DNA of 64,000 bases from Streptomyces europaeiscabiei (lineage in GTDB: Bacteria > Actinomycetota > Actinomycetes > Streptomycetales > Streptomycetaceae). A model generated the notes under the pieces. The model saw only the letters and a program-made list of their open reading frames with translations. It was not told the origin of the DNA and ran no database searches. The position numbers were made by a program, and so were the translations under genes. Where the stretch lies: positions 2,484,001-2,548,000 of the forward strand of contig NZ_CP107841.1 in the NCBI RefSeq assembly GCF_036346855.1. The letters run 5' to 3'. Shown here piece by piece: positions 18,898 through 54,292 of the stretch (the stretch's first letter is position 1; the number at the start of each line of letters is the position of its first letter).

Positions 18898-20484
18898 TCA
18901 CTTGGCCGCCCACGGCCAGTCGGCGTCTCGGGCGGCCTCGAGCAGCGGCACCATCCGGAAAGCCGCGTCCGAGAGCCCGCCGAAGGTGTGGCGGTTCGCC
19001 TTGCCGGAGGGGCCGTGGCCCGCCCGGTAGCCGGCGAGGTTCCAGGTGTAGACCGGCACGTGGGCCGGGATCTGCCGGGTCGGGTCGCCGTAGTGGCTGT
19101 AGGTCGCCTGCTCGTCGGTGACGATCAGCACCCGGTCGTGCTTGCGGTAGTGGCGGCGGACGGCCTCGGTCGTGTCGGTGCCGCCCAGGTCGCCGAACCG
19201 CCCGATGATCTTCAGCACGGACTCGCCCGCACCGAACTTCACCATCCGGCTCGTGCTCCCGAACTCGACGAGATCCGCGTCCGCCGCCCGCAGCGCGAGC
19301 GCCGTGCCGAAGATCGCCGCCGCGTCGGCGTACGTGAGCGACGAGCGGTCGGTCAGCCGCGAGCCGAACATCGAGCCCGAGCGGTCGACCAGGACCAGGG
19401 TCCGGCCGGGCAGCGCGGGCACGTTGGCCAGCGAGTGGCCGAGCGCCTGCTCCAGCGGGTACGCCCAGCGCAGCGAGGGCGCGTGGCGGTACGCCGAGAG
19501 GTAGCGGAACGGGAACTGCCGCGAGCGTGCGACCTCCGCCGGGTCACTGATCCGCGCCGCGACCCGCGCCGCGACCTCGTCCGATACACCCGCCTGATCG
19601 AAGTTCCGCAGGTTCCTCGTCAAGGCCATGGCACCCATGGACGGGATGACGGCCTCCCAGGCCGCCTTGTCCATCGGCCCCTGCAGCCAGCCCGCCAGCG
19701 CCTCCCAGGTGATGCCCGCGTCCGCGAGGCGCCGGGCGCCGTGCGCTCCGGTCACGACCTTGCGCCGCTTGGCGGGCCGCAGCTCCATCAGGTCACGGTG
19801 GGCCGCGAGCATCGGCAGAGACCTGGGCACGACGGCCGTGTCCGGGTTGTGGCGCCGGTCGAGGGCGTACTGGAACAGGTCCCCCTGCCACGGCTTGTCC
19901 GGGTCCGGCGCCGCGTGCACCAGGTTGAGGATGTCGCCGAAGCGGTAGCCCTTGGACGCCGTGTCGTACTTCAGCAGCGACTTGGGGCTGTAGAGCCGCC
20001 GTACGGCGTCGGCGACGCCCCGCTTCACCGGCTTGGGGATGTTCCGGCCGTACCGGGAGGTCCAGTAGGCGAGCAGCTCGCCGGGCTCGTCCGGGCGCCG
20101 CAGCACCGAGTCGACGACCTGGCGGTTGGTGGGCCCGTCGGTGACGCCCGCGTCGAGCCGTGCCTTCACGTACTCGGCGGCGCCCACGATGGAGGCCGTA
20201 CGGAGGTTGCCCTCGCCGCGCAGCCAGCCGAGGAGACCGGCCGTCCACCCCGGGTCGGTGACGGCGAGCCGGCCTACGAGCGCGGCGAACCGGTCGTCGC
20301 GGTCCTCGCCGCTCTCGTAGAAGGTCTTCTGCGCGACGAAGTTGGCGATCGACAGCAGGAACAGCTCCGAGCGCTCGTCCCGCTCACGGCCTCGGCCGCC
20401 CTCGTACGTACGGAGCACACGCCCCGTGGAGGTGACCCGCGAGGTGGGCTGTGCCTTGCCGGCCTTCGTGTTGAATCGCGCCAT
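18898..20484 (-). CDS. rsr: TROVE-domain Ro60-like RNA-binding protein
   Basis: A 528-residue ortholog of Ro60/Rsr. The N-terminal about 350 residues are the HEAT-like TROVE ring (GDILNLVHAAPD, MALTRNLRNFDQAG), which binds Y RNAs and ends of misfolded RNAs. The C-terminal part is a von Willebrand A domain with the metal site DRSGSM (about 367-372), GGTDTTEA (about 434) and VTDEQ. Bacterial Ro60 partners with Y RNA and PNPase in structured RNA decay. The ATG with GGGGGAG 6 bases upstream is preferred to an earlier in-frame ATG. Two Y RNA-like genes lie directly upstream on the same strand. Confidence 0.95.
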   Translation of the reverse strand: MARFNTKAGKAQPTSRVTSTGRVLRTYEGGRGRERDERSELFLLSIANFVAQKTFYESGEDRDDRFAALVGRLAVTDPGWTAGLLGWLRGEGNLRTASIVGAAEYVKARLDAGVTDGPTNRQVVDSVLRRPDEPGELLAYWTSRYGRNIPKPVKRGVADAVRRLYSPKSLLKYDTASKGYRFGDILNLVHAAPDPDKPWQGDLFQYALDRRHNPDTAVVPRSLPMLAAHRDLMELRPAKRRKVVTGAHGARRLADAGITWEALAGWLQGPMDKAAWEAVIPSMGAMALTRNLRNFDQAGVSDEVAARVAARISDPAEVARSRQFPFRYLSAYRHAPSLRWAYPLEQALGHSLANVPALPGRTLVLVDRSGSMFGSRLTDRSSLTYADAAAIFGTALALRAADADLVEFGSTSRMVKFGAGESVLKIIGRFGDLGGTDTTEAVRRHYRKHDRVLIVTDEQATYSHYGDPTRQIPAHVPVYTWNLAGYRAGHGPSGKANRHTFGGLSDAAFRMVPLLEAARDADWPWAAK

Positions 20485-20571
20485 GATGAACTCCCCCGAA
20501 TTCTTCAGCACTTCGTGCGTGGAATCCCTGTTTCAGGTTTCTTTTCTCAGGGGGAGGCGCGGCAAAGGGAA

Positions 20572-20722
20572 GGTGCCCGAGGTCGAAGTCGGCGGCGGTG
20601 CTCATAACTGGCGCGTCTGCCGTTCCGCCACACCGACCCTGAGTCGATGACGGGATTTGAACCCGCACGAGGAGTTACCCCCACCAGCTCCCGAAGTATC
20701 CGCTGCCTGCGCACCGGGCACC
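20572..20722 (-). ncRNA. yrlA: YrlA-type Y RNA, copy B (proximal to rsr)
   Basis: On the minus strand the ends GGTGCCCG (20722-20715) and CGGGCACC (20579-20572) pair, continuing with GCAGCGG/CCGCCGC. Inside is a tRNA whose halves are exchanged: T-arm GCGGGTTCAAATCCCGT (20666-20650), acceptor strand CATCGAC (20649-20643), a 5-base loop TCAGG, the other acceptor strand GTCGGTG (20637-20631), TG, then the D-arm GCGGAACGGCAGACGC (20628-20613). The acceptor stem is seven pairs with one G-U. This is the topology described for bacterial YrlA RNAs, which are encoded beside Ro60. It ends 87 bases before the rsr ATG. Confidence 0.8.
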
Positions 20723-20778
20723 CACCGTCTGCCGCGCCTCCCGAGATCGGATCGCACCGGGAGGTGCATGAAGTTTGG

Positions 20779-20921
20779 GTGTCCAGAGATCGAAGCCGGC
20801 GGAACCGACGTAGGTGCTCTAACCTCTGAGCTACACCGGCGTGTTGGTACCGGTGGCGGGAATCGAACCCGCGGCCGCCCCATAATAAGTGGAAGTAGGT
20901 CCTGCCTTCGCACCTGGACAC
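20779..20921 (-). ncRNA. yrlA: YrlA-type Y RNA, copy A (distal)
   Basis: Terminal helix GTGTCCAG (20921-20914) with CTGGACAC (20786-20779), then CGAAG/CTTCG and GCAGGACC/GGTTCCGC. The permuted tRNA domain is T-arm GCGGGTTCGATTCCCGC (20872-20856), acceptor strand CACCGGT (20855-20849), loop ACCAACAC, acceptor strand GCCGGTG (20840-20834), TA, and the classical D-arm GCTCAGAGGTTAGAGC (20831-20816). All seven acceptor pairs form (one G-U). The loop begins ACCA, as if discriminator plus CCA. A promoter -10 box sits 5 bases before the helix start. A hairpin CCTCCCG/CGGGAGG (20764-20736 region) between the two RNAs may end this transcript. Confidence 0.82.
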
Positions 20922-20926
20922 GCATC

Positions 20927-20957
20927 ACTCTAGGAGGCGCACCGCGGGCCGGGCCAA
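20927..20957 (-). promoter_or_regulatory. promoter of the Y RNA genes
   Basis: On the minus strand TTGGCC (20957-20952) and TAGAGT (20932-20927) are 19 bases apart. Five bases later begins the 5' strand of the copy A terminal helix, so the predicted start point and the RNA fold agree. Confidence 0.6.
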
Positions 20958-20965
20958 TGAATTAA

Positions 20966-22480
20966 CTACCGCTTCTGCCGCTTCCACGGACCGGTGATCG
21001 CGAGCAGAATTCCCGGCGTCTGGATGTTGGCGTACAGGGTCTTTCCGTCGGGTGAGAAGGTGACGCCGGCGAACTCGCTGTACTCCGGCTCGTCCTCGGT
21101 GCCGCCCGCTGCGGCAGCAGCTGATGCGATGGCCAGGTCGTTGCGGGCGATCGGGTACGTACGGCCGCTGTCGGTGGCGCCGAACAGGTGCGAGACGCCC
21201 TCGCCGTCCTCGGCCAGGATGATGCCGCCGTAGGGGGAGACGGTGATGTTGTCGGGGCCGTCGAGCGCGCCGTCCACGGACGGGTCGGGATTGACGCCGA
21301 GCAGGACCTTCAGGGTCAGGGTGCGGCGCTTGGGGTCGTAGAACCAGACCTGGCCGTCGTGCGCGGCGCCGGGGCTCTCCGCACGGGCGTAGGAGGAGAC
21401 GATGTACGCGCCGCCGTCGCCCCACCACATGCCCTCCAGCTTGCGGGCGCGGGTGATCTCGGTGGCCGCGAACTGCTTGCGCACGGCGACGGTCTTCGCG
21501 TCACGGTCGGGGACGTCGATCCAGTCGACCCCGTACACCGTGCCGGCCTTCGTGGCGCGGGACAGGTCGTCGACGAACCGGCCGCCGGAGTCGTAGCACC
21601 TGGGGGCCTGGAGGACGCCCGCGTCGTCGGCGAGGGTACGGAACTTCCCGGGGCCGTAGATGAATCCGCGGGGCGGGGTCCAGCGGAAGAAGAGGCCGTT
21701 GGGGGCCGCCGCGTCCTCGGTGAGGTAGGCGTGGCCGCGCCCGGGGTCGATGACGACGGCCTCGTGGTCGTAGCGGCCGAAGAACTTCAGGGGCTTCGGG
21801 GCGCGGTTGGCACGGCGGTCGCAGGGGTCGACCTCGAAGACGTACCCGTGGTCCTTGGTCATGCCGTTGACGCCGGCCCGGTCGGAGTTCTCCTCGCAGG
21901 TGAGCCAGGTGCCCCACGGGGTGCTGCCGCCCGCGCAGTTGGTGGACGTGCCCGCGATCCCGACCCACTCGGCGACGCGCCCGTCGGGCCGGACCTCCAC
22001 CACGGTGCAGCCGCCGGCGGCCGCCGGGTCGTACACCAGTCCCTCGGTGAGCGGCACCGGGAACTCCCAGTTGGCCCGGGGCCCCTTCAGCTCGTGGTTG
22101 TTGACGAGGAGGGTGGTGCCGCGGGGGCCGGGGAAGGCCGCGGTGCCGTCGTGCTTGCCCGGCGTGAACTCGCCCGACTCCAGCTTCGTCTTCCCGCTGT
22201 ACGTGATGATCCGGTACTTGAAGCCGGCGGGCAGCGCCAGGATGCCCTCGGGGTCGGGCACGAGCGGCCCGTATCCGACTCCACCGTGGCGGTCCGCCCC
22301 GCGCTCGGTGGCGTCGCCGGTCGCGTCGCCGTGGTCGGCCACCGCGTCCAGGTCCAGGTCCGTGTCCGTCGACGCGAGGGCGTTCGGCGCGGTGGCGAGC
22401 GCGCCTACGCTGCCCGCCAGCGCGATACCGGCCCCGGTGACCGCGGATCGTCTGGCGAAGTCCCTGCGGGTGAGCGGCAT
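20966..22480 (-). CDS. PhoX-type (DUF839) alkaline phosphatase, Tat-exported
   Basis: A 504-residue protein with a twin-arginine signal (TRRDFARRSAV, hydrophobic region to about 37). The body matches DUF839/PhoX beta-propellers: LLVNNHELKGPRANWE, GGSTPWGTWLTCEENSD, GRYDHEAVVIDPGRGHAYLTED, LDGPDNITVSPYGG. PhoX enzymes release phosphate from esters outside the cell using Ca2+ and Fe3+. The ATG follows AGGAGA; an upstream in-frame ATG lacks the Tat position and is rejected. Two 11-base PHO-box units 70 bases upstream indicate PhoP control under phosphate starvation. Confidence 0.9.
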   Translation of the reverse strand: MPLTRRDFARRSAVTGAGIALAGSVGALATAPNALASTDTDLDLDAVADHGDATGDATERGADRHGGVGYGPLVPDPEGILALPAGFKYRIITYSGKTKLESGEFTPGKHDGTAAFPGPRGTTLLVNNHELKGPRANWEFPVPLTEGLVYDPAAAGGCTVVEVRPDGRVAEWVGIAGTSTNCAGGSTPWGTWLTCEENSDRAGVNGMTKDHGYVFEVDPCDRRANRAPKPLKFFGRYDHEAVVIDPGRGHAYLTEDAAAPNGLFFRWTPPRGFIYGPGKFRTLADDAGVLQAPRCYDSGGRFVDDLSRATKAGTVYGVDWIDVPDRDAKTVAVRKQFAATEITRARKLEGMWWGDGGAYIVSSYARAESPGAAHDGQVWFYDPKRRTLTLKVLLGVNPDPSVDGALDGPDNITVSPYGGIILAEDGEGVSHLFGATDSGRTYPIARNDLAIASAAAAAGGTEDEPEYSEFAGVTFSPDGKTLYANIQTPGILLAITGPWKRQKR

Positions 22481-22548
22481 GCTGTCTCCTGCGTGGCGGT
22501 GGATGACCGTGGGGGCGGACCCGAGCTGTCGCGCCACACGGTCGCGCT

Positions 22549-52204: not shown

Positions 52205-54292
52205 GTGAGCAGCAAGCCGACCACTACAGACCTCGCGTGGACCGAGTTGGACCAGCGTGCCGTCGACACGGCCCGAGTCCTGGCAGCCGACGCCGTACAG
52301 AAGGTCGGCAACGGCCATCCGGGTACGGCGATGAGCCTCGCGCCCGCCGCGTACACCCTCTTCCAGAAGGTGATGCGCCACGACCCCGCCGACCCCGACT
52401 GGGTGGGCCGTGACCGGTTCGTCCTGTCCGCCGGCCACTCCTCCCTGACCCTCTACATCCAGCTGTACCTGGGTGGCTTCGGCCTGGAGCTGGAGGACCT
52501 GGAGTCCTTCCGCACCTGGGGTTCGAAGACCCCGGGCCACCCGGAGTACGGGCACACCAAGGCCGTCGAGACGACGACCGGGCCGCTGGGCCAGGGTGTC
52601 GCCAACGCGGTGGGCATGGCGATGGCCGCCCGTTACGAGCGCGGTCTGTTCGACCCCGAGACCGCCGTCGGCGAGTCGCCGTTCGATCACCACATCTTCG
52701 TGATCGCCGGTGACGGCTGTCTCCAGGAGGGCATCTCCGCCGAGGCGTCCTCGCTGGCCGGTCACCAGAAGCTCGGCAACCTGGTCCTGTTGTGGGACGA
52801 CAACCACATCTCGATCGAGGGCGACACCGAGACGGCCGTCTCCGAGGACACCGCCAAGCGGTACGAGGCGTACGGCTGGCACGTGCAGCGCGTCGAGCCG
52901 AAGGCGAACGGCGACCTCGACCCGGCCGCGCTGTTCGAGGCGATCGAGGCCGCGAAGGCCGTCACCGACAGGCCGTCGTTCATCGCGATGCGCTCGATCA
53001 TCGCCTGGCCCGCCCCCAACGCGCAGAACACCGAGGCCGCGCACGGCTCGGCACTCGGCGCGGACGAGGTCGCGGCCACCAAGCGGGTTCTCGGCTTCGA
53101 CCCGGAGAAGAACTTCGAGGTCGCGGGCGAGGTCATCGCGCACACGCGCGCCCTGGGCGAGCGTGGCCGTGAGGCCCGTGCCGTCTGGGAGAAGCAGCTC
53201 CAGGAGTGGCGCGACGGCAACGCCGAGCGGGCCGCGGAGTTCGACCGGATCAGCGCGGGCGAGCTGCCCGAGGGCTGGGAGTCGCACCTGCCGGAGTTCG
53301 AGACGGGCAAGAGCGTCGCGACGCGTGCCGCGTCCGGCAAGGTCCTGCAGGCGCTCGGCGCGGTCGTCCCCGAACTGTGGGGCGGCTCGGCCGACCTCGC
53401 CGGTTCGAACAACACGACGATCGACAAGACGTCGTCCTTCCTCCCGGCGGACAACCCGCTGGCGGAGGCGAACCCCTACGGCCGCACGATCCACTTCGGC
53501 ATCCGCGAGCACTCCATGGCCGCGGAGATGAACGGCATCGCGCTGCACGGCAACACCCGTATCTTCGGCGGCACGTTCCTGGTGTTCTCCGACTACATGC
53601 GCAACGCCGTACGCCTGTCCGCGCTGATGCACCTGCCGGTGACGTACGTCTGGACGCACGACTCCATCGGTCTCGGCGAGGACGGCCCGACCCACCAGCC
53701 GGTCGAACACCTGGCCTCCCTGCGGGCGATCCCGGGCCTGAACATCGTCCGCCCGGCCGACGCCAACGAGACGACGATCGCCTGGCGCGAGATCCTCAAG
53801 CGCTGGACCAAGGAGTTCGGCAAGGGCGCCCCGCACGGTCTGGCGCTCACCCGCCAGGGCGTGCCGACGTACGAGGCCAACGAGAATGCCGCCAAGGGTG
53901 GTTACGTCCTGTTCGACGCCGAGGGCGGCGACGCCCAGGTCGTCCTGATCGCCACCGGGTCCGAGGTGCACGTGGCCGTGGAGGCCCGTGAGCGGCTCCA
54001 GGCGCAGGGCGTGCCCACCCGGGTGGTGTCCATGCCGTCCGTGGAGTGGTTCGAGGAGCAGGACCAGGGGTACCGGGACAGCGTTCTGCCGCCGGCCGTC
54101 AAGGCGCGGGTCGCGGTCGAGGCCGGTATCGGTCTGACCTGGCACCGGTACGTCGGTGACGCCGGCCGCATCGTTTCGCTGGAGCACTTCGGCGCTTCGG
54201 CCGACGGCAAGGTCCTCTTCCAGGAGTTCGGCTTCACTGCCGAGAACGTGGCCGCGGTCGCGCAGGAATCGCTCGCAGCCGCTCAGCGCTGA
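52205..54292 (+). CDS. tkt: transketolase
   Basis: A 695-residue thiamine diphosphate enzyme. [16 protein letters not shown] (about 35-50), the ThDP motif beginning [13 protein letters not shown] (about 162), [15 protein letters not shown] (about 427-441) and [20 protein letters not shown] (about 483-502) are complete. It moves two-carbon units between sugar phosphates in the non-oxidative pentose phosphate pathway. GTG start with a GGAGAGGAG site about 14 bases upstream. First gene of the operon tkt-tal-zwf-opcA-pgl. Confidence 0.96.

Follow-up and report, generated by a model that had tools for sequence, protein, structure and literature searches.

The Y RNA of Deinococcus and the YrlB RNA of Salmonella are Y RNAs without a tRNA part. 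For the tRNA part of bacterial Y RNAs, we know of no settled role. Bacterial Y RNAs bind Rsr through their lower stem and tether PNPase, as described in two papers (PMC4726728, PMC8394870), the first of which reports tethering of Ro60 to PNPase by the Y RNA for Deinococcus. According to PMC8394870, YrlA resembles the D, T and acceptor arms of a tRNA. In PMC7790460, the tRNA part of YrlA, which is itself uncut, was proposed to inhibit an anticodon nuclease by competition, and that paper offers only possibilities for the role of this part.

The window (the whole 64,000-nucleotide stretch analysed, G000:C1:2484001-2548000) is part of a 10.95 Mb genome. It contains a stretch of Y RNA units located between phoX and a gene for a TROVE/Ro60-like protein, all three on the minus strand. 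Judged by sequence, this stretch is very probably a Y RNA array placed before a Ro60-type gene, in which unit 1 would be a complete permuted tRNA and unit 2 a class II one. The features of the locus are as follows.

20966-22537, minus strand: phoX (PF05787).
20927-20957, minus strand: likely promoter, with a -10 box TAGAGT (20932-20927) and a weak -35-like TTGGCC (20957-20952).
20779-20921, minus strand: unit 1, Y RNA with a complete permuted tRNA (H-type), from sequence and alignment.
20921-20914 with 20786-20779, minus strand: basal stem of unit 1, GTGTCCAG with CTGGACAC, 8 pairs.
20907-20914, minus strand: 5' side of the putative Ro60 site of unit 1, GGTGCGAA, with its 3' side at 20794-20787, from sequence conservation.
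20878-20892, minus strand: Y-side part of the anticodon arm of unit 1, CCA (20892-20890, nt 29-31), loop CTTATTA (20889-20883) and TGGGG (20882-20878, nt 39-43).
20856-20872, minus strand: T-arm of unit 1, from sequence.
20834-20855, minus strand: acceptor stem of unit 1, 3' strand first, closed by the 8-nt loop ACCAACAC.
20816-20831, minus strand: D-arm of unit 1, from sequence.
20813-20814, minus strand: nt 27-28 (CC) of unit 1, after A26 (20815), pairing with nt 42-43.
20735-20766, minus strand: unit M, a shrunken third Y RNA, from alignment with copies of 68-78 nt in relatives.
20572-20722, minus strand: unit 2 (S-type), Y RNA whose class II permuted tRNA is broken in the anticodon loop and has a Leu-like D-arm, from sequence comparison.
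20722-20715 with 20579-20572, minus strand: basal stem of unit 2, GGTGCCCG with CGGGCACC, 8 pairs.
20667-20688, minus strand: 3' strand of the anticodon stem of unit 2 (GCTGG, 20688-20684) and long variable arm (20683-20667).
20666-20650, minus strand: T-arm of unit 2, from sequence.
20649-20631, minus strand: acceptor of unit 2, from sequence.
20630-20612, minus strand: Leu-type D-arm of unit 2, from sequence.
20607-20611, minus strand: 5' strand of the anticodon stem of unit 2, CCAGT, after the D-arm.
18898-20511, minus strand: gene for the TROVE/Ro60-like protein (PF05731, E 7.4e-13), downstream of the Y RNA units.

An earlier note on this DNA had placed two tandem Y RNA genes beside a Ro60-type gene. 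Both units lie where it put them and the downstream gene encodes a TROVE protein; a third, shrunken Y RNA (20766-20735) between the two had been missed. The layout that it gave for both units, with a basal stem and permuted T-arm, acceptor and D-arm, is borne out together with its coordinates, and for unit 1 it overlooked a complete anticodon arm. The doubled set that it had thought worth a closer look in a streptomycete belongs to an array of three genes in reduced form, of a type usual among the genus loci that we read.

The TROVE protein scores 18.7 bits against the Rsr model NCBIfam NF041674, below the cut-off of 900, and so falls outside that model. The solved chains closest to it by sequence are 9kop/9l5y, a "TROVE domain-containing protein" (E 1.6e-26), and PADLOC returned no match for the three proteins submitted to it. 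Matches to the TROVE protein were found in 75 of 121 genus, 60 of 101 family and 52 of 394 class genomes, these samples overlapping. Some streptomycetes (G013, G030, G101, G498 and others) harbor a second or third, more distant TROVE gene. The GTG start assigned by the ORF finder in the window (20482-20511) is probably too early; the motif GGGGGAG (20497-20491) precedes an ATG at 20484, the likely start. Elsewhere in the window, ARAGORN called a tRNA-Pro(tgg) at 52471-52543 that is absent among the RF00005 matches listed for the genome.

We searched the window with the Rfam models, and none matched at the family cut-offs. At a lax threshold, unit 1 matches YrlA (RF02553) with 32.8 bits (E 2.9e-5), below the cut-off of 69; unit 2 gave no YrlA match up to E 10. 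The RF02553 cut-off was reached in none of 121 Streptomyces genomes, the best score being 60.8 bits beside a TROVE gene, and in 0 of 20 and 0 of 18 loci tried that hold units with a full anticodon arm. A low YrlA bit score was rejected as a detector, as a 38.4-bit match runs across two tandem tRNAs. In this match (G000:C1:3411288-3411401), the T-arm and acceptor of one tRNA gene and the acceptor and D-arm of the next mimic a permuted tRNA. The full Rfam YrlA consensus comprises a 4-bp remnant of the anticodon stem and 4 nt before the T-arm, with no anticodon hairpin. With YrlA and other bacterial Y RNAs, units 1 and 2 share a TROVE neighbor, a closing basal stem and a permuted T/acceptor/D domain. 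YrlA has no separate anticodon arm; unit 1 has one, and unit 2 is without an anticodon loop, as YrlA is.

Comparison with related units shows unit 1 to be, at the level of sequence, a complete circularly permuted tRNA whose ends lie inside the anticodon stem, between nt 28 and nt 29. Its basal stem is flanked by GTGCGAA and TTCGATCT, and all 22 Streptomyces copies of unit 1, found with a search pattern that tolerated two errors, have GGTGCGA unchanged. The 5' strand of the anticodon stem is split, with nt 27-28 located after the D-arm and nt 29-31 on the Y side; the Y body is thus inserted inside the anticodon stem. In the window, CC and CCA face UGGGG with Watson-Crick pairs throughout and close the 7-nt loop CUUAUUA, whose anticodon is UAU. 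In tRNA order, unit 1 is closest among 56 distinct tRNAs of its own genome to elongator tRNA-Met (55 of 73 positions identical), followed by tRNA-His (54), in keeping with the elongator-like character attributed to it earlier.

Unit 2 is shown by the same kind of comparison to be a class II permuted tRNA with its ends in the anticodon loop. The 5' strand of its anticodon stem comes wholly from after the D-arm and forms 5 pairs at a variable length of 17; the anticodon loop is missing. In a sample of 63 S-type copies with a D-arm (59 distinct), class I copies form 5 pairs at spacer 5 in 31 of 45 and at least 4 pairs in 41 of 45, and copies with a Leu-type D-arm form 5 pairs at spacers of 17-19 in 10 of 14. 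The tRNA-Leu-like D-arm described earlier is borne out, and the 5' half of unit 2 is closest to tRNA-Leu(gag) (27 of 32, against the same 56 tRNAs), but its 3' half is closest to tRNA-Pro(ggg) (36 of 47, with 32 of 47 for Leu(gag)). Unit M is reduced in the window to 32 nt, which hold only a basal stem and a putative Ro60 site, the inner hairpin being lost. Elsewhere it measures about 68-78 nt, and some copies are also shrunk (L003, L040). The middle units of L058, L061, L062, L064 and L068, all from one sister genus, contain a variable-arm-like hairpin and a T-arm with no recognisable D-arm or acceptor, and we read them as further tRNA fragments serving as inserts.

The anticodon arm was examined in a geometry scan of 122 units with a T-arm, with hairpin loops of 4-11 nt and spacers of 0-11 nt. 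Hairpins of 5 bp peak at a 7-nt loop and a 5-nt spacer (36 of 122 units; next cell, 11), and hairpins of 4 pairs have no such peak, with 17 at the spacing of a tRNA and up to 52 in other cells. In many units the Y box (UACUUC) is separated from the T-arm by a hairpin whose loop has 7 nt, followed by 4-5 nt as in a tRNA. We also scanned public genomes and viral contigs with a pattern that left nt 30, 31, 39, 40, 42 and 43 free, except that the genome scan barred C at nt 30. These scans gave at least 118 and at least 120 stretches, respectively, and stretches from a Y-box scan of viral contigs were analysed as well. Among the matches listed, 25 genome hits and 48 viral hits are distinct and have an upstream Y box. 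In these, 30:40 pairs in 24 of 25 and 47 of 48, and 31:39 in 23 of 25 and 48 of 48, so that each forms in 71 of the 73 distinct hits listed, compared with 9-45 of 73 in slid controls. The 30:40 pairs are CG in 25 hits, GC in 22, UA in 19 and AU in 5. Among the matches listed without a Y box, 30:40 and 31:39 form in 30 and 66 of 96 genome hits, and in 87 and 84 of 89 viral hits. The latter are mostly Y RNAs with another Y box and provide no control, because they are mostly paired and, among the matches listed, 67 of the 80 in which the anticodon and T stems pair have a Ro60-type gene in their locus.

The pairs on the other side of the split were counted in 99 distinct units, drawn from 121 of which 116 had a located D-arm; units upstream of 72 loci had been preselected for at least 3 of 5 hairpin pairs. 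Both 27:43 and 28:42 are Watson-Crick in 96 of the 99. The former is CG in 81, GC in 12, UA in 2 and AU in 1, and the latter CG in 60, UA in 33 and GC in 3. Controls moved by one nucleotide give 4 and 50 Watson-Crick pairs at -1, and 48 and 23 at +1 (81 and 71 with G-U included). Among the matches listed without the actinobacterial Y box, restricted to hits with a paired hairpin and T-stem, the two pairs form in 21 and 21 of 22 distinct genome units and in 66 and 64 of 68 distinct units from viral contigs. A plain 5-bp hairpin with UUC of the Y box as nt 27-29 was tried and dropped. The split stem is preferred since nt 42-43 covary with the nucleotides that follow A26, the UU of the Y box being invariant.

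Covariation over the whole structure was measured in an alignment of 30 diverse units (identity of no more than 80% over the first 60 nt), selected by motif and paired basal stem; 31 had been picked, and a duplicate reading of L142 was removed. Over all 28 pairs, 96.7% of cells are paired, and 22 pairs have double changes in 204 cells, versus 70.6%, 15.8 pairs and 62.3 cells in shuffles. A test on 15 pairs leaves out the basal stem, the T-stem and 29:41, all touched by selection. Here 96.2% of cells are paired versus 66.2% when shuffled, with 127 double-change cells versus 40.1 (reached in 0 of 500 shuffles) and 13 pairs with double changes versus 9.9 (1 of 500). Slid versions of this test give at most 52.5% paired cells and 28 double-change cells. 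Covariation in homologous RNAs, on which the earlier reading had been made to depend, is present. The basal stem is paired in 95.2% of cells in the aligned rows, partly by construction as the rows were picked for it; its many different pair types are not by construction. RNAalifold recovers the hairpin, the T, acceptor and D arms and the inner Y stem unprompted. For nt 42-43, however, it chooses the UU of the Y box as partner, where only one-sided changes occur.

The loop itself follows a tRNA-like rule. Of 195 distinct units whose arms are paired, 136 have U36, 133 of them with A37 next to it, and 29 have G36, 26 of them with G37, a link which we take to reflect t6A37 and m1G37. The loop of unit 1 in the window has U37 and is off this rule. 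These 195 units display 35 anticodons, none of which matches a stop codon, and G46 is present in 140 of 143 five-nucleotide variable regions. Because the contig pattern imposed U33, a purine at 37 and A38, the independent features are limited to the 36-37 link and the variable region. The 28 Streptomyces unit 1 copies carry the anticodons CAU (11), GAU (9), CUU (6), GUU (1) and UAU (1); positions 34-35 vary in them and 32, 33, 36 and 38 are invariant.

Folding of single sequences gave a weak signal, with z -2.94 for unit 1 and z 0.09 for unit 2, the latter piece lacking the first two nucleotides of the basal stem. The minimum-energy fold of unit 1 in the window has no anticodon arm. Of the corresponding folds of the 30 units, 10 show the 29-31 hairpin, 2 the 27-28 part and 22 the T-stem. 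Forcing the model structure on these 30 units costs a median of 7.1 kcal/mol. We weigh covariation above these folds since the folding algorithm ignores tRNA tertiary contacts and protein. ARAGORN was given units rearranged into tRNA order, with nt 27-31 all taken from the Y side (13 of 119 could not be parsed). It called 103 of 106 rearranged units tRNA, and 0 of 106 in native order. After shuffling of the anticodon arm, 91.5 were still called on average; ARAGORN is thus no test of this arm, and its calls were rejected as evidence for it.

Arrays of Y RNA units are usual in the genus loci that we read and are not special to the strain of the window. All 30 genus loci with the best matches (L002-L031) have two or more units upstream of the TROVE gene, and we identified unit 1 in 22 of them, L010 being truncated by its contig end. 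The commonest order in Streptomyces is unit 1, unit M, unit 2. With loose patterns, 4 of 30 unit M matches, and the unit 2 matches of unit 1 loci, fell on unit 1 and were excluded. An approximate parser counted 191 units in the oriented upstream regions of 72 actinobacterial loci (L002-L073), with three units in 39 loci, two in 26, four in 5 and one in 2; it labelled unit 2 of the window as T-arm only and merged or cut some other units. A linker AACUUCA stood out by eye, but a loose motif occurs in only 29 of 115 linkers, and it is not claimed. In 44 of 69 loci, a TANNNT box begins exactly 18 nt 5' of GGTGCG in the first unit, and in Streptomyces loci without unit 1 it mostly lies 29-31 nt before unit M. 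A scan for the sigma-70 consensus gave no hit.

Units of this kind extend beyond the Actinobacteria. Among the matches listed, 19 of the 23 genome hits that have paired anticodon and T stems but another Y box are accompanied in their locus by a Ro60-type gene, compared with 2 of 73 unpaired hits; of the paired hits with the Y box, 15 of 21 are, the other 6 having none in the stretch examined. H-type loci with a Ro60-type gene include Acidobacteriaceae (L080), Taibaiella (L082), Bacteroidetes (L088), Bradyrhizobium (L094), Ruminococcus (L105), Hyphomonadaceae (L111), Paenibacillus (L133) and Clostridia (L144). Viral loci with a Y box match the TROVE protein in 67 of 82 cases, and 87 GenBank phage records match it. 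Seven of these records were examined: annotated tRNA genes lie on both sides in four and on one side in one. In phages L430, L432, L435 and L436, tRNA genes flank the Ro-like gene, and the upstream units with a Y box are not annotated as Y RNA. Annotated tRNAs that look like Y RNA parts occur in 3 of the 7 records, each containing a Y box and read by us as part of a Y RNA: tRNA-Arg(tct) of VanLee (L431:1216-1287), tRNA-Pro(tgg) of Frankenweenie (L434:1269-1359) and tRNA-Ser(gct) of Alone3 (L435:1283-1356).

Most likely, the units are tRNA mimics that would be bound by Ro60 and could not be charged. The likely promoter just upstream would drive synthesis of the Y RNAs, and the Ro60 protein would bind and protect their basal part. 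The tRNA part would dock enzymes that normally handle tRNA and should escape charging, since its acceptor end is a closed loop. Unit 1 could offer an anticodon loop in addition to D, T and acceptor arms. Alternatively, RNase P cleavage and 3' trimming might turn the same RNAs into working tRNAs, either in two pieces or circularised, for which the Y body would be a spacer. This would fit the retained bases of tertiary contacts (G46 in 140 of 143), the ARAGORN calls on rearranged units and the ACCA that follows the acceptor strand in the window. It is highly improbable: the CCA at this place is not kept in relatives, copies of unit 2 often have short end loops such as UUCG, the anticodon stem is interrupted and unit 2 has no anticodon loop. 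That decayed tandem tRNA genes merely mimic a permutation, as the 38.4-bit YrlA match in the genome of the window does, has next to no probability in view of the closing stems beyond the tRNA part, the Ro60-type neighbor and covariation across phyla. The array might also act in cis as a leader for autoregulation of the Ro60 protein, which is compatible with the mimic model. In the 72 actinobacterial loci, of which only upstream regions were sampled, the units immediately precede the gene and share its strand, and a promoter-like box precedes the first unit. We consider this role unlikely; the array exceeds the needs of a leader because every unit is closed by a stem of its own and as many as four units repeat per locus, and in L088 (Bacteroidetes) and L161 the H-type unit follows the Ro60-type gene on its downstream side.

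That several phyla, and phages too, keep a complete anticodon arm with a tRNA-like 36/37 link suggests partners by which this arm is read. Our preferred role, held tentatively, is that the tRNA mimics may act as bait or adaptor for nucleases or modification enzymes that read the anticodon. With a limited probability, both units could instead be ordinary YrlA RNAs and the anticodon-like hairpin of unit 1 only a neutral leftover of the ancestral tRNA. The tRNA-derived look of the loops and D-arms would fit such an origin, as would the unfixed identity of the anticodon (five anticodons in 28 Streptomyces copies). Across phyla and phages, however, the arm is kept by many different compensatory changes of its stem, and in these same 28 copies 34-35 vary while 32, 33, 36 and 38 are identical. 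H-type members would present the anticodon loop itself, and their anticodons differ among close relatives. More speculatively, and with a low probability, H-type Y RNAs might be widespread complete tRNA mimics held by Ro60 and also borne by phages. They would act as baits for, or sensors of, anticodon nucleases or enzymes modifying the anticodon loop, with the triplet free to change in a host-phage contest and the rest of the arm kept.

In the literature covered, which did not extend to the founding Y RNA papers, we found neither Streptomyces Y RNAs nor a bacterial Y RNA with an anticodon arm mentioned; the arm may have been noticed earlier in those founding papers. The closest described system is YrlA (RF02553; Salmonella, 6CU1), which likewise has D, T and acceptor arms permuted within a closing stem, with an adjacent Ro60 gene. 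Unit 2 shares its topology, the strand after the D-arm pairing with the strand before the T-arm; both are without an anticodon loop, and unit 2 adds a long variable arm. Unit 1 alone has a complete anticodon arm, with its split stem. The Deinococcus Y RNA and YrlB resemble unit M of relatives, a closing stem with a short upper hairpin, of which the window keeps the closing stem only. Permuted tmRNA (RF04321) matches weakly, with 19.1 bits (cut-off 47), and only the T-arm/acceptor part. The permuted tRNA genes of algae and archaea mature into working tRNAs. In these genes the 3' half likewise precedes the 5' half and a spacer joins the acceptor ends; in the present units, unlike in them, the CCA is not conserved and the Y body lies inside the anticodon stem.
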